Origin: Bacteroidota bacterium
GTDB taxonomy: Bacteria > Bacteroidota > Ignavibacteria > Kapaibacteriales > UBA2268
Reading direction: 5' to 3'
Length of the DNA: 53,313 nt
NCBI GenBank assembly: GCA_021780815.1
Contig: JAJXYC010000009.1
Coordinates: forward strand, 95,157 to 148,469
The translations under genes and the position numbers were made by a program. The notes under the pieces were generated by a model. It saw nothing but the letters and a program-made list of their open reading frames with translations. It was not told the DNA's origin and did no database searches. Shown in pieces: positions 8,591 to 12,492 of the stretch (its first letter is position 1; each line of letters starts with the position of its first letter).

Positions 8591-9370
8591 TTATTTCACT
8601 TTAATGGCTAAACAATCATAAGAAACTCGGTCGCCAAAATAGTTAGCAAAATATCGTTTTATTATTCTCCAGCCAGCAATTTCAAAAGAACCATTCGTAA
8701 GTAAAGTACTTGAGAAATTTGCAGGTTTTTCTAAAACATCAAATAATTCTTTATTTTGAGTTAAAATGATGTGTTTGCCATTAGAATCCACAACAATAGT
8801 TAAAGATTCAATAGCTAAATCAGCCAACCCTTGCGCAGGAATATGCGACATACTTTCTTTAACTTCCAATTGAATCATCCTTGCACGAGCTTCAGGTCCA
8901 ACGACATCTTTTGCAGTACTCATCAAATCTAAAAGGTAATTGCGGACAGAATTTAAATCTTCCAGTGATTTTAATTTGTCTTCATCGTGCAATTCGCTTA
9001 AAGCTTTCGCAATATTTGAGATTTCTTTTAAATAATGGTTCCTTTGATTGCTCGGGACAAAATACATAATGACTAAATGCACAGGCTTTGTATCAATAGA
9101 TTCGTAATTAATACCAGAAGGACTCCAACCGATTGCACAAAGCAAATCACCTTCAAAAGGAACTCGTGCATGAGGCACAGCAACACCTTTGCCAAGAGAA
9201 GTATTAAAACTTTCTTCTCGCTTTAAAACAAAACCCGCAACATCAGTGTTACTCGGCACAGCAGGTATTGCTTCTAATATGTGTGCAAGAAGTTGTAAAC
9301 CATGATTTTTTTCATTATCAGGAAGTTCTATAAGTCTCCCTTCTTGTAAAGCATCAAGTAACGCATCCAT
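8591..9370 (-). CDS. PTS EIIA type-2-like regulatory protein downstream of mgtA
   Basis: A 259-residue protein whose first ~155 residues match a PTS EIIA type 2 (fructose/nitrogen) domain, including the phospho-acceptor-type histidine H67 in GKGVAVPHARV. The last ~95 residues form an extension I do not recognise; it has alternating strands and helices and ends AIKVK. No sugar permease (EIIB/EIIC), EI or HPr lies nearby, so a sugar-transport role is unlikely. Its start lies 2 bases beyond the mgtA stop, so the pair is almost certainly co-translated. By analogy with PtsN (EIIA-Ntr), which controls K+ uptake proteins by binding, it may tune the Mg2+ pump. That role is inference. Confidence 0.75.
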   Translation of the reverse strand: MDALLDALQEGRLIELPDNEKNHGLQLLAHILEAIPAVPSNTDVAGFVLKREESFNTSLGKGVAVPHARVPFEGDLLCAIGWSPSGINYESIDTKPVHLVIMYFVPSNQRNHYLKEISNIAKALSELHDEDKLKSLEDLNSVRNYLLDLMSTAKDVVGPEARARMIQLEVKESMSHIPAQGLADLAIESLTIVVDSNGKHIILTQNKELFDVLEKPANFSSTLLTNGSFEIAGWRIIKRYFANYFGDRVSYDCLAIKVK

Positions 9371-9372
9371 AA

Positions 9373-12033
9373 TTAATCATCTCCAAATTTTTTAAAAAAC
9401 CAAACTTTAACAAAATGGGTAAGAGTTGAATAAAGTAAAAGAAAACTTGTAATCCAAATCCAATAAGTGTAAGGTAAAGCAACCAGTCCAAGAGTTCCAG
9501 ATAAAGGAGAATAAGGCAACCATACTGCAATTGCCATAATTATTAATGTTGTAAGTGTCATTGGTAGTGATGCTCTACTTCCAAAGAAAGGAATTTTCTT
9601 TGTGCGAATTATATGAACGATTAATGTTTGTGTTAGCAAGGATTCCACAAACCACCCTGTTTGGAATAAACTTACAAGATAGGATTTGCTGTGTTGAGTT
9701 AATGTTGGGTTAAGAAATTCACGAGCATTAAATATTATCCACATCAGACCAAATGTTGCATAATCAAAAATTGAACTCATTGGACCAATAAAGACCATAA
9801 ACTTTTTAATATTGTTTATGTTCCACTTCAACGGTTTAGCAATCAGTTCTTTATCTACATTATCAGTAGGAATTCCTGTTTGAGAAAAGTCATAGAGTAA
9901 ATTATTAGTAAGGATTTGAATAGGTTTCATTGGCAAAAATGGGAATAAATAACTTGCACCAAGTACACTAAACATATTACCAAAGTTAGAACTAGCTCCC
10001 ATACGAATATATTTTACAATATTAGCGAAGACTCTTCTACCTTCCATAATGCCTTCTTCAAGCACCATCAAACTTTTTTCTAATAAAATAATATCTGCGG
10101 ATTCTTTTGCAACATCCACACCGCTATCAACTGAGATGCCAACGTCAGAGGCTCTTAAAGATGGCGAGTCGTTAATCCCATCACCCATATAACCCACAAT
10201 ATGTCCTGTTTCCCTTAATCCGTATATAACTTTTTCCTTTTGAGACGGAGATAATTTTGCAAATACATTCGCTTCTTCTATAACTTGTTGAAATTGGTTG
10301 TTGTTCATTCTTTCAATTTCATCGCCAGTAACAATTTTAGTAATTTTAAGACCAACGTCATTACATACTTTTTTTGTAACTAATGCGTTATCACCAGTAA
10401 GGATTTTAACCTCTACACCACTATTATGTAAAGCGGCAATAGCTTCGGGTGTAGATTCTTTTGGTGGGTCAAAAAAGGCTATATAACCTAAAAGGATTAA
10501 GTCGCTTTCGTCTGATACGTTAAATACAGTTTTGTCTTTTGTGAATTCTCTATAACCAATAGCAAGAACACGGTAACCATCGTTGTTTAAATCTTCCACT
10601 TCTTCATATAAATCATTTTGAATCATTGGAATTAACGGATATATTTCATCGTCAACTTGATATTTGTTGCAAACAGAAAAAATTTCTTCAACAGCACCTT
10701 TACAAATTAAAACATGGTCGCCTTCGTATTCTACAACAACAGACATTCTCCTTCTTTGGAAATCAAAAGGAAGCTCGTCGACAAGTTGACATCTTGATTC
10801 AACATTTAAATCTATGCGTTCAATTACAGCTCGATCGATTAAATTTTTCAATCCAGTTTGGTAAAAACTATTTAAATAAGCATAAAGGAGGACATCATCG
10901 CTTTCTTTACCAGTTATATCAACGTGCTTTTCTAAAACCACCTTATCTTGTGTTAAAGTTCCTGTTTTATCGGTACATAAAATATCAATTGCACCGAAAT
11001 TCTGAATTGAACTTAAATTTTTCACAATAACTTTTTTGCGAGACATTGATAAAGCACCTTTGGCAAGATTTACTGTTACAATCATAGGCAACATTTCTGG
11101 GGTTAAGCCTACTGCAATAGATAAACCAAATAATAAAGCATCAATCCAATCACCTTTTGTTAAGCCTACTATCATAAAAACAGCAAAGACCATCAGAAGC
11201 ATAAATTTTATCATCAAATAAGTAAATGACTTAACACCTTTGTCAAAACTTGTTTCAGGACGTTTGCCGGTTAATTTTTCTGAAATAGAACCGAAATAAG
11301 TTCTTGTGCCTGTATTTATAACTATACCTCTTGCACTACCACTAATTACGTTACTTCCCTGGAAACAGGCATTGGTCAAATCAAAAACATAACTTCCTTG
11401 TATTGGTTCTGTTTCTGATTTTTTTTCAACTGGCATTGCCTCGCCTGTTAGTACAGATTGGCTAACAAAAAAATCTTTTGCCGTGATTAATCTTAAATCT
11501 GCGGGAATAATAGAACCAGCCTGCAATATTACAATATCGCCGGGGACTATTTCTGAAATTGGAATTTCAATTTCTTTCCCATCTCTTAATGCTATGACTT
11601 GCGATTGAACTCTTTTCCCTAAGGCTTCAACTGCTTTGTTTGACCTTCTATCTAATACATAAGATAACCCTACACTCAATAATACCATCATACTTACTAT
11701 AATTGAAGATTTCACTTCACCAATTATTATAGAAACAATTGCTATTATGAGTAGCTGGATAACAAGCGGACTTTTCAATCTGTTATATATATCAACCCAG
11801 AAGTTTAATGTTTTAGTGTGTGCAAGTTCATTTTTTCCATATTCATCTAATCTTTCTTCTGCTTCCTCGTTCGTTAAACCTAAACTGCTACTTTCCAGTT
11901 TTAAAAAATTTTCGGCTATTGATGTCTGGCAGACTTCAATTAATAATTTCTCGTAATCTGAAATTGAATGCGGACTTTTTGCCGCTTTTGTAAATGAAGA
12001 AGCTGATATTTTTGGGAAAATTGATTTAGTCAT
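9373..12033 (-). CDS. mgtA: Magnesium-translocating P-type ATPase MgtA
   Basis: An 886-residue P-type ATPase of the MgtA/MgtB (type IIIB) group. The actuator loop is LTGEAMPVEK (195-204), the phosphorylated aspartate is D355 in DKTGTLT, and the hinge GDGIND is intact. The MgtA-specific stretch ASSNFGNMFSVLGAS follows, and then FDYATFGLMW in the C-terminal membrane region. Helices cluster at about 90-125, 270-320 and in the last 220 residues. It imports Mg2+ when the cation is scarce. A strong GGAGG ribosome binding site (12040-12044) sits 6 bases before the ATG. The ATG overlaps the stop of a 60-codon ORF, and a further short leader ORF lies upstream, which suggests translational control. The EIIA-like gene follows after 2 bases. 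Confidence 0.95.
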   Translation of the reverse strand: MTKSIFPKISASSFTKAAKSPHSISDYEKLLIEVCQTSIAENFLKLESSSLGLTNEEAEERLDEYGKNELAHTKTLNFWVDIYNRLKSPLVIQLLIIAIVSIIIGEVKSSIIVSMMVLLSVGLSYVLDRRSNKAVEALGKRVQSQVIALRDGKEIEIPISEIVPGDIVILQAGSIIPADLRLITAKDFFVSQSVLTGEAMPVEKKSETEPIQGSYVFDLTNACFQGSNVISGSARGIVINTGTRTYFGSISEKLTGKRPETSFDKGVKSFTYLMIKFMLLMVFAVFMIVGLTKGDWIDALLFGLSIAVGLTPEMLPMIVTVNLAKGALSMSRKKVIVKNLSSIQNFGAIDILCTDKTGTLTQDKVVLEKHVDITGKESDDVLLYAYLNSFYQTGLKNLIDRAVIERIDLNVESRCQLVDELPFDFQRRRMSVVVEYEGDHVLICKGAVEEIFSVCNKYQVDDEIYPLIPMIQNDLYEEVEDLNNDGYRVLAIGYREFTKDKTVFNVSDESDLILLGYIAFFDPPKESTPEAIAALHNSGVEVKILTGDNALVTKKVCNDVGLKITKIVTGDEIERMNNNQFQQVIEEANVFAKLSPSQKEKVIYGLRETGHIVGYMGDGINDSPSLRASDVGISVDSGVDVAKESADIILLEKSLMVLEEGIMEGRRVFANIVKYIRMGASSNFGNMFSVLGASYLFPFLPMKPIQILTNNLLYDFSQTGIPTDNVDKELIAKPLKWNINNIKKFMVFIGPMSSIFDYATFGLMWIIFNAREFLNPTLTQHSKSYLVSLFQTGWFVESLLTQTLIVHIIRTKKIPFFGSRASLPMTLTTLIIMAIAVWLPYSPLSGTLGLVALPYTYWIWITSFLLLYSTLTHFVKVWFFKKFGDD

Positions 12034-12212
12034 AAATTGCCTCCATAATTATTTTCAGTATATATTGAATGATTATGGAAAGTATTTAAACTATAATATA
12101 ATCCTCTTTTTGGATCTATTCTTAAAACCAAAAAATTAAGCATTATATGCTTTATATTTTGCTCAAAAATACTTTGATTACAGGTTGTAAAGACATTAAA
12201 GTATTTTTTCAT
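12030..12212 (-). CDS. 60-residue ORF overlapping mgtA start (possible coupled leader or small protein)
   Basis: An ATG at 12212 is preceded by AGAGAGG five bases upstream. The frame runs 60 codons to a TGA that shares ATGA with the mgtA start. A GTG six bases earlier (12218) is a possible alternative start. The product begins MKKYFNVFTTCNQ, includes LNFLVLRIDPKRGLYYSL, has no transmembrane helix and matches no family I know. The mgtA Shine-Dalgarno sequence lies inside its last codons, so its translation would open or load that site. Two readings are possible: a true small protein, or a coupling leader. Chance cannot be excluded, because low-complexity AT-rich sequence gives such ORFs readily. 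Confidence 0.42.
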   Translation of the reverse strand: MKKYFNVFTTCNQSIFEQNIKHIMLNFLVLRIDPKRGLYYSLNTFHNHSIYTENNYGGNL

Positions 12213-12228: not shown

Positions 12229-12280
12229 CTTCCTTGGAGGTTTACCAACAAATTAAATTAGGAGGTTATTTCCAAGAAAG
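12229..12280 (-). promoter_or_regulatory. Stem-loop in mgtA leader RNA (candidate attenuator)
   Basis: Bases 12271-12280, which encode the last leader codons, pair over 10 positions (one G-U) with 12229-12238: CUUUCUUGGA with UCCAAGGAAG. The 32-base loop includes CCUCC, a second CCUCC overlaps the 3' arm, and both could also pair with the mgtA GGAGG. A further CACC (12281-12284) to GGUG pairing could cover the ribosome binding site of the 60-codon ORF. A ribosome finishing the leader would melt the stem; one that drops off early would let it form. The switch direction is unknown. Confidence 0.5.
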
Positions 12281-12343
12281 GGTGTTTTTGAAATTATGTG
12301 AATTAATTTTTTGAGCGCCAGGTTCATCTGAATCAGGCATCAT
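12266..12343 (-). CDS. 25-codon candidate Mg2+-sensing leader peptide of mgtA
   Basis: Two adjacent ATG codons (12343 and 12340) open a 25-codon frame that ends in TAA at 12266-12268. The N-terminus reads MMPDSDEPG, giving two prolines and three acidic residues within nine positions, and the C-terminus reads NTLSWK. A TTAGGA ribosome binding site lies 4 bases before the first ATG, and a -7-like element lies 30 bases upstream. In E. coli and Salmonella, the mgtA leader peptide MgtL also starts with an acidic/proline run that destabilises ribosomes at low Mg2+. The resemblance is in composition and position, not alignable homology. The last codons pair with RNA just ahead of the next ribosome binding site. 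Confidence 0.55.
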   Translation of the reverse strand: MMPDSDEPGAQKINSHNFKNTLSWK

Positions 12344-12373: not shown

Positions 12374-12381
12374 CAAAATTA
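12374..12381 (-). promoter_or_regulatory. Putative -7 element of the mgtA leader promoter
   Basis: The minus strand reads TAATTTTG, an exact match to the Bacteroidota -7 consensus TAnnTTTG. It is followed by TAATGTTG, and the leader ATG lies 30 bases downstream. No convincing -33 TTTG is seen at the expected spacing. Confidence 0.4.
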
Positions 12382-12465: not shown

Positions 12466-12492
12466 AAAAGCTGCCTTTTAAAGACAGCTTTT
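12466..12492 (-). terminator. Hairpin terminator after the porin gene
   Basis: AAAAGCTG and CAGCTTTT form an 8-bp stem around an 11-base, partly self-pairing loop. It lies 62 bases past the porin stop and before the mgtA leader promoter. The T-tract is only the TTTT of the stem arm on either strand, so it may act in both directions or be weak. The rest of the 12219-12553 interval holds only the mgtA leader elements described separately. Confidence 0.5.

Follow-up and report, generated by a model that had tools for sequence, protein, structure and literature searches.

Bacterial Mg2+ importers can be placed under Mg2+-dependent leader control by the M-box riboswitch (RF00380). In translational attenuation of the erm type, a ribosome on a leader peptide picks between hairpins and exposes a downstream ribosome binding site (RBS). 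The latter arrangement is depicted in a figure legend of PMC10219788. Two enterobacterial leaders stand closest to the locus described here. In Salmonella mgtQ, according to the excerpted account in PMC8092293, the Asp2 and Glu5 codons and alternative stem-loops govern exposure of the mgtB RBS, and ribosome destabilisation is the proposed cause of switching on. In E. coli, as an excerpt of PMC11282234 states, low Mg2+ causes ribosomes to be lost at the EPDP motif of the leader peptide MgtL, a loss that EttA counteracts. To judge from our searches, enterobacteria are the only group in which sensing of Mg2+ by a peptide has been worked out; a full-text search of papers outside subscription journals and preprint servers found no published account of such leaders beyond them.

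The window, by which is meant the whole 53,313-nucleotide stretch of DNA that was analysed, carries an mgtA gene preceded by a short open reading frame, here called uORF1 (Table 1). A first-pass annotation had described it as an acidic, proline-rich 25-codon ORF, preceded by TTAGGA and a -7-like element and sitting alone between a porin terminator and mgtA, and had proposed an MgtL-like Mg2+ sensor. An ORF of that extent is present at 12266-12343 on the minus strand (MMPDSDEPGAQKINSHNFKNTLSWK), and so are TTAGGA and the element TAATTTTG before it. The terminator on the far side of the leader belongs to the porin gene (PF07642) upstream, and the downstream gene is mgtA by its TIGR01524 score. 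The sequence TAnnTTTG lies at -39 to -41 from the uORF1 start codon in seven of 15 loci, the window included, and occurs anywhere within 75 nt in nine of 15, against 1.2 expected from mononucleotide shuffles. Because TAnnTTTG is kept among relatives, transcription most likely begins upstream of uORF1; no convincing -33 element was seen in the leader promoter of the window.

Table 1. Features of the mgtA leader region, in positions of the window.
Feature	Position	Strand	Evidence or remark
PTS EIIA (PtsN-like) gene, 2 nt 3' of mgtA, probable operon partner	8591-9370	-	PF00359, 8.8e-19
mgtA, P-type Mg2+-importing ATPase, the gene controlled in the proposed scheme	9373-12033	-	TIGR01524 1092.9 bits (cut-off 610.75); NF011702 1082.2 bits
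uORF2, 60 codons, stop overlapping the mgtA start (ATGA)	12030-12212	-	no Pfam family
Inverted repeat able to hide mgtA's own Shine-Dalgarno	12033-12088	-	arms 12033-12053 and 12068-12088, 76% complementary
RNA segment C, GAGAGGTGCCAATG, uORF2 Shine-Dalgarno and start codon	12210-12223	-	B:C hairpin -11.0 kcal/mol, z -1.58
RNA segment B, shared arm	12229-12249	-	pairs with A (12229-12249) or C (12236-12249); 14 nt common to both
RNA segment A, uORF1 end including stop codon, pairs with B	12261-12280	-	A:B -13.9 kcal/mol, z -2.2; covariation, 15 loci
uORF1, MPDSDEPGAQKINSHNFKNTLSWK, 24 aa, candidate Mg2+-sensing nascent peptide	12266-12340 (to 12343 if first ATG)	-	15/18 clade orthologs; pN/pS
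-7-like promoter element TAATTTTG (TAnnTTTG)	12374-12381	-	at -39 to -41 from the uORF1 start in 7/15 loci
Intrinsic terminator of the porin gene, left boundary of the leader	12466-12492	-	12-bp stem, T tail; 1 found, 0.3 expected

The first-pass annotation had tied its proposal to conservation of the ORF and of its acidic/proline start in relatives, and this conservation is found. uORF1 lies ahead of mgtA in 15 of 18 distinct Ignavibacteriota-clade orthologs, a set made up of 16 from the class-wide search, L032, and L033, which was placed by the tree only. The second ATG of the window (12340) is the one that matches the conserved start in each of the 14 Ignavibacteriota-clade relatives, so the peptide probably has 24 residues. 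Its start is mostly M[PR]DSDEPGA, and examples of the peptide are MPDSDEPGANKC (L159), MRDSDEPGANIK (L163), MTGSDEPGACQT (L034), MNDSDDPGAEHK (L035) and MLDTDELSPKKK (L032). A clear uORF1 is absent from three of the 18 orthologs: nothing resembling it is seen in L125, L170 offers no more than a weak MHNSDEI, and L161 may have a diverged MEDSVGD. The peptide is acidic, as had been claimed, but it is not proline-rich, having two prolines in 24 residues, of which only Pro7 is widely kept. The uORF1 Shine-Dalgarno of the window is modest, and the starts of L155 and L156 are weak, lacking a good one.

Pairwise counts in the Ignavibacteriota clade, uncorrected for phylogeny, give codons 3-7 a pN/pS of 0.09 and codons 10-16 one of 0.91, a contrast that points to selection on the start of the peptide and not on its tail. 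It is almost certain that uORF1 is translated and under selection. Codons 7-9, CCT GGC GCT (Pro-Gly-Ala), are near-invariant even at their third positions, a constancy not shared by the preceding DSDE codons, and an additional RNA role for these codons is possible. A DNA pattern of the DSDEPGA type, searched without regard to neighbouring genes in 331 genomes of the class, occurs at 14 places in 11 genomes, and a reversed control pattern at none. Nine of the 14 places lie 182-282 nt before mgtA, one per genome. Searches of two other classes gave one place each, before mgtA, and both were the seed genomes. The remaining five places (L190, L191, L193-L195) fall in genomes G063 (one) and G092 (four), in which mgtA had no match at 1e-150; the four in G092 carry GACAGCGACGARCCGGGCGC, and both genomes are of the same order as the window.

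Chance, which had been named as the main alternative for so short an ORF, is poorly compatible with the motif counts. A leader motif with a Shine-Dalgarno requirement, picked after the first relatives were known, was tested on the 58 mgtA loci whose identity is 60% or higher. It matches 24 of them, the window included; two match on the reverse strand, and shuffles give an expectation of 0.8. Below 60% identity it matches four of 108 loci, against none on the reverse strand and 0.7 in shuffles. Two of the 24 matches were rejected (L170, L153) and nine leaders missed by the motif were accepted by eye (L032, L034, L035, L036, L043, L154, L155, L078, L169), for a total of 31. A looser acidic-start test on 102 other mgtA-type loci gave six matches, compared with two on the reverse strand and 1.0 in shuffles. 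The small number of matches outside the clade indicates that the element is confined to one MgtA clade and that acidic leaders are no general rule for mgtA. The motif [DE][DE]P, picked after the leaders had been inspected, is present in 13 of 15 leaders of the Ignavibacteriota clade, where shuffling of residues predicts 0.6, and in eight of 14 leaders from other phyla, where it predicts 0.9. Duplicate loci were removed (L147=L032, L148=L037, L149=L050, L150=L044, L151=L072, L152=L096, L126=L038, L162=L034, L167=L035), and L078 and L156 are one locus.

Recognisable relatives of uORF1 also precede mgtA genes of other phyla that show 62-70% identity. Their starts include MNDSDGSHSC (L037), MGDSDGSQ (L040), MSDPDGGHSC (L041), MNDSDGSHSY (L044), MGDADGSPSC (L045), MSDSDGSYSS (L049) and MNDADGSYSR (L072), among others. 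Going by tree labels and the titles of the records, the phyla are Thermodesulfobacteriota, Myxococcota, Spirochaetota, Acidobacteriota and Aminicenantota, together with one Chlorobium (L038); most are metagenome-assembled genomes (MAGs), and single assignments may be wrong. In these leaders pN/pS is 0.37 for codons 3-6 and 0.88 for codons 10-16. Several of the longer ones carry a second acidic-proline motif in the middle (EPDDPFPRR in L047, EPEDPFPR in L044, ESEDPGPR in L041), and by eye these resemble a stretch of E. coli MgtL.

An MgtA tree of 131 rows, each with at least 780 bits and at least 700 residues, places all 31 leader rows in a single 49-row clade (SH-aLRT 99). They make up 15 of 18 rows in its Ignavibacteriota clade, 15 of 19 mixed-phyla rows and one of 12 Chlorobi/Nitrospirae rows; L048, among the four leaderless mixed-phyla rows, has no upstream DNA. 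This clustering was matched by none of 500 label shuffles. The E. coli MgtA falls outside the leader clade, on a long branch of unsure place. The tree makes the element an inherited part of one MgtA clade that spans several phyla, rather than something new to a single phylum. The best named relative of the window MgtA, at 80% identity, comes from a Melioribacter MAG, which places the window in or near Ignavibacteriota. A high-identity mgtA of this type was found in one of 54 family genomes, the window's own (the next match reached 53%), and a class-wide search gave matches of at least 72% identity in 16 of 391 genomes. Judged from these matches, this type of mgtA is sporadic.

An EIIA homolog lies directly 3' of mgtA in 30 of the 31 leader loci, the available DNA of the 31st (L159) being too short, and 3' of mgtA in 74 of 181 P-type ATPase loci overall, duplicates counted. 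By gene order, the putative mgtA-EIIA operon is conserved in this MgtA clade, even where the leader is missing. A viral collection gave no match to the exact pattern MNDSDGS[HQ], and one of its contigs carries an mgtA-type gene (L112) that sits near Clostridium in a separate tree. Firmicutes mgtA loci (L200/L098, L102, L201, L106, L100, L104, L103, L108), viewed by eye and without a control, show a different short ORF with a Shine-Dalgarno just before mgtA, starting MESGS, METGS, MAAGS, MDAGS, MDPDGS, MDSER or similar. In L096 (2493-2667) and L098 (2454-2648, both 0-based), a leader ORF (MDSDSSHS.., MDDGHS..) is followed by a hairpin like that of an intrinsic terminator, with a T run. The ORF contains a copy of the 3' arm of this hairpin which, in single-sequence folds, is able to pair with the 5' arm, so a transcription-attenuation version of the switch described below is possible there.

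The window leader proved to hold more than the lone ORF first described: a pair of competing hairpins and a second ORF, uORF2, overlapping the mgtA start, come after it. Segment A runs across the uORF1 stop, segment B lies 16-36 nt beyond this stop, and segment C contains the uORF2 Shine-Dalgarno. RNA alignments covered 29 loci, 15 from the Ignavibacteriota clade and 14 from other phyla, the leaders L036 and L038 being left out. For A:B, a plain MAFFT alignment of the 15 loci with the structure taken from L159 has 70.9% of its cells paired, double-sided change in 21 cells and a covariation of 0.352, values that were each reached by none of 500 shuffles; the best slid version gave 55.6% and 0.201. 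Pair 34-71, for example, is G-C in eight loci and A-U in seven. Two other measures were unexceptional: 55 of the 500 shuffles reached the number of pairs changed on both sides, and 109 reached that of further pair types. Over the 15 loci A:B has a mean folding z of -3.53, whereas the mean for 45 control windows taken from mgtA is -0.24.

The B:C hairpin is 80.9% paired in the same 15 loci, against at most 53.1% when slid, and its covariation there is weak (score reached by 49 of 500 shuffles), as expected if the Shine-Dalgarno fixes C. Its z values in this clade include -1.58 in the window, -0.96 in L124, -0.75 in L164, -1.14 in L165 and +0.13 in L169. Across the 14 loci from other phyla, pairing of B:C reaches 89.3%, with 49.4% as the highest value when slid, and seven pairs show double changes; four measures were reached by none of 500 shuffles and a fifth by five. 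When A was sought by duplex energy in these 14 loci, only L050 (z -3.64) stood out from shuffled sequences. In 14 of the 15 Ignavibacteriota-clade loci a stretch of 8-14 nt of B is contested between A and C, the exception being L164, whose plain fold lacks B:C. Whole-leader folding of the window alone (z -1.96 and z -0.60) is not decisive, in contrast to the comparison among loci. Taken over the Ignavibacteriota clade, the A/B/C switch is very probably real.

Translational coupling between uORF2 and mgtA is probable. The uORF2 stop overlaps the mgtA start by up to 8 nt in 16 of 29 leader loci, and in five others (L044, L047, L049, L072, L156) C is the start of mgtA itself. The remaining eight have neither arrangement: uORF2 ends 11-86 nt before mgtA in L159, L160, L163, L164 and L166, and L123, L035 and L040 lack a usable start codon at C. 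For these counts the mgtA starts of L041, L050 and L060 were assigned by eye. The mgtA Shine-Dalgarno in the window has a mean unpaired probability of 0.23, and a ribosome finishing uORF2 would open the inverted repeat over it.

For modelling of the predicted polarity, a ribosome was assumed to cover -18 to +11. When such a ribosome stands at the uORF1 stop, A is wholly covered in ten of 15 loci and covered to 59-92% in the other five. In the window, the predicted accessibility of C is 0.46 when the RNA is free or the ribosome stands at codon 6, and 0.12 when the stop is blocked. Blocking the stop, compared with codon 6, lowers C exposure by more than 0.1 in eight of 15 loci and by 0.01-0.09 in four, gives no difference at two decimals in L123, L034 and L169, and never raises it. 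If low Mg2+ aborts ribosomes early, this modelled polarity in the Ignavibacteriota clade is what a Mg2+ importer needs. For the 14 loci from other phyla the same model predicts the reverse in 11, by more than 0.1 in nine, because B begins 0-9 nt after the stop there (13 of 14; 27 nt in L040). These leaders may need stalling near the stop, or may act through reinitiation.

These features suggest the following course of events. With enough Mg2+, ribosomes would complete uORF1 and sit on A at the stop codon; with A covered, B would fold onto C, the Shine-Dalgarno would be hidden and little MgtA would be made. When Mg2+ is low, the acidic/proline run (DSDEP) would destabilise the ribosome near codons 3-7 and leave A free, so that A:B could form, C would be exposed and uORF2 translated. 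The uORF2 ribosomes would reach or open the mgtA start, MgtA would be made and Mg2+ imported. The Mg2+ signal we infer from the gene controlled, the acidic/proline motif and the two tested enterobacterial cases. By analogy with these cases, sensing of Mg2+ through ribosome abortion on uORF1 is reasonably probable. The whole reading, a Mg2+-responsive translational attenuator whose input is the ease with which ribosomes get through the acidic beginning of uORF1, we hold to be somewhat better supported than its denial. Degrees of confidence given here are judgements and not computed values.

In its proposed mechanism, the leader would work like MgtL and MgtQ. With mgtQ of the Salmonella mgtCBRU operon, as far as the excerpt of PMC8092293 describes it, the locus shares a small uORF that has Asp/Glu codons near its start and precedes the gene of a P-type Mg2+ importer. 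It also shares alternative stem-loops with the target RBS hidden in the inhibitory one; in the window this is the RBS of the coupled ORF, by prediction and covariation. According to the same excerpt mgtQ encodes 8 residues between mgtC and mgtB, whereas the leaders here have 17-51 residues and are predicted to come first in the transcript; the gene upstream in the window is the porin gene with a terminator of its own. Additionally, A here spans or adjoins the uORF1 stop, the second uORF overlaps mgtA in the 16 loci counted above, and the peptide sequences differ. With MgtL the locus shares a short leader ORF upstream of mgtA with acidic and proline residues. The motif in MgtL is EPDP, whereas the window peptide has DSDEP, as part of DSDEPGA, and the leaders have no EPDP, and the E. 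coli MgtA occupies a separate long branch. MgtL acts by Rho-dependent termination according to the excerpt of PMC11282234, whereas RBS hiding is predicted here. The idea of an MgtL-like sensor is supported as regards conservation of the ORF and of its acidic/proline start, and gives way as regards the output, which is predicted to be hiding and exposure of an RBS.

The M-box is alike in being leader control of a Mg2+ importer, but the window has no M-box match. An Rfam scan of the window, 14 leader loci, L096 and L103 gave only tRNAs at gathering score, except in L103 (Clostridiales, of another MgtA clade), which has an SRP RNA and an M-box riboswitch upstream of mgtA. With no Rfam match to the leader in the window or the 14 leader loci, an M-box or other Rfam RNA was rejected. 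The general traits of a translational attenuator, namely a leader ORF, mutually exclusive hairpins and an RBS in one of them, are all present by prediction and covariation. The erm type differs in relying on a drug-stalled ribosome, whereas in the Ignavibacteriota clade A:B, with C open, is the state predicted when no ribosome sits on A.

The same RNA switch could serve a different signal if uORF1 were a specific arrest peptide that pauses at DSDEPGA and reports a state other than Mg2+, such as EF-P, EttA, L31 or general translation capacity. The motif is kept residue by residue (D-S-D-E-P-G-A, and DSDGSHS elsewhere), beyond what a generic acidic run needs, and EttA acts on acidic motifs in E. 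coli in the excerpt of PMC11282234. However, most of the neighbour-blind places of the motif in Ignavibacteria (nine of 14) precede mgtA; this tie of uORF1 to a Mg2+ importer favours a Mg2+ signal, and we consider the arrest peptide unlikely. Slow charging of Asp, Pro or another tRNA might also stall uORF1, whose start carries two Asp and two Pro codons. An amino-acid attenuator of this kind is very improbable, since there is no run of a single residue, relatives have R, N, T, S or L in place of Pro2, and the product is a Mg2+ pump without a link to an amino-acid pathway. It was rejected on the lack of a codon run in uORF1 or its relatives.

A mainly transcriptional output would have Rho cut the untranslated RNA after uORF1, with uORF2 translation protecting the transcript. 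The Rho-dependent terminator through which E. coli MgtL acts (PMC11282234, excerpt), the five loci in which uORF2 stops short of mgtA without overlap (L159, L160, L163, L164, L166), and the intrinsic terminator after the uORF in two loci of other MgtA clades (L096, L098) all speak for it. But the start codon inside the hairpin is that of mgtA itself in five loci, and a consensus scan of the window found no intrinsic terminator between uORF1 and mgtA, so this output is rated as improbable. That uORF1 and the hairpins are chance, with mgtA controlled elsewhere, might be suspected from the shortness of the ORF and from the three of 18 orthologs that have no clear one. The motif counts, the pN/pS of the peptide start, and the covariation score and tree clustering, neither equalled in 500 shuffles, are so hard to reconcile with it that we give it almost no credence, and a chance ORF was rejected on the motif counts, covariation and pN/pS.

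The preferred reading, translational attenuation in response to Mg2+, may extend beyond the Ignavibacteriota clade. Tentatively, and with slightly more doubt than conviction, the leaders may represent an ancient family of nascent-peptide Mg2+ sensors, M-x-D-S-D-[EG]..., that travels with mgtA in at least seven phyla. In such a family the peptide would stay constant while the output module is swapped, being a hairpin over the mgtA RBS, a hairpin over the RBS of a coupling ORF, or an intrinsic terminator in one Spirochaete and one Clostridial locus. The 31 diverged leaders show which residues the sensor keeps. If the family is real, the enterobacterial MgtL would be one case of a general bacterial way of reading Mg2+ through the ribosome, and conservation across several phyla would turn the destabilisation of ribosomes by acidic nascent chains into a physiological signal of general use.
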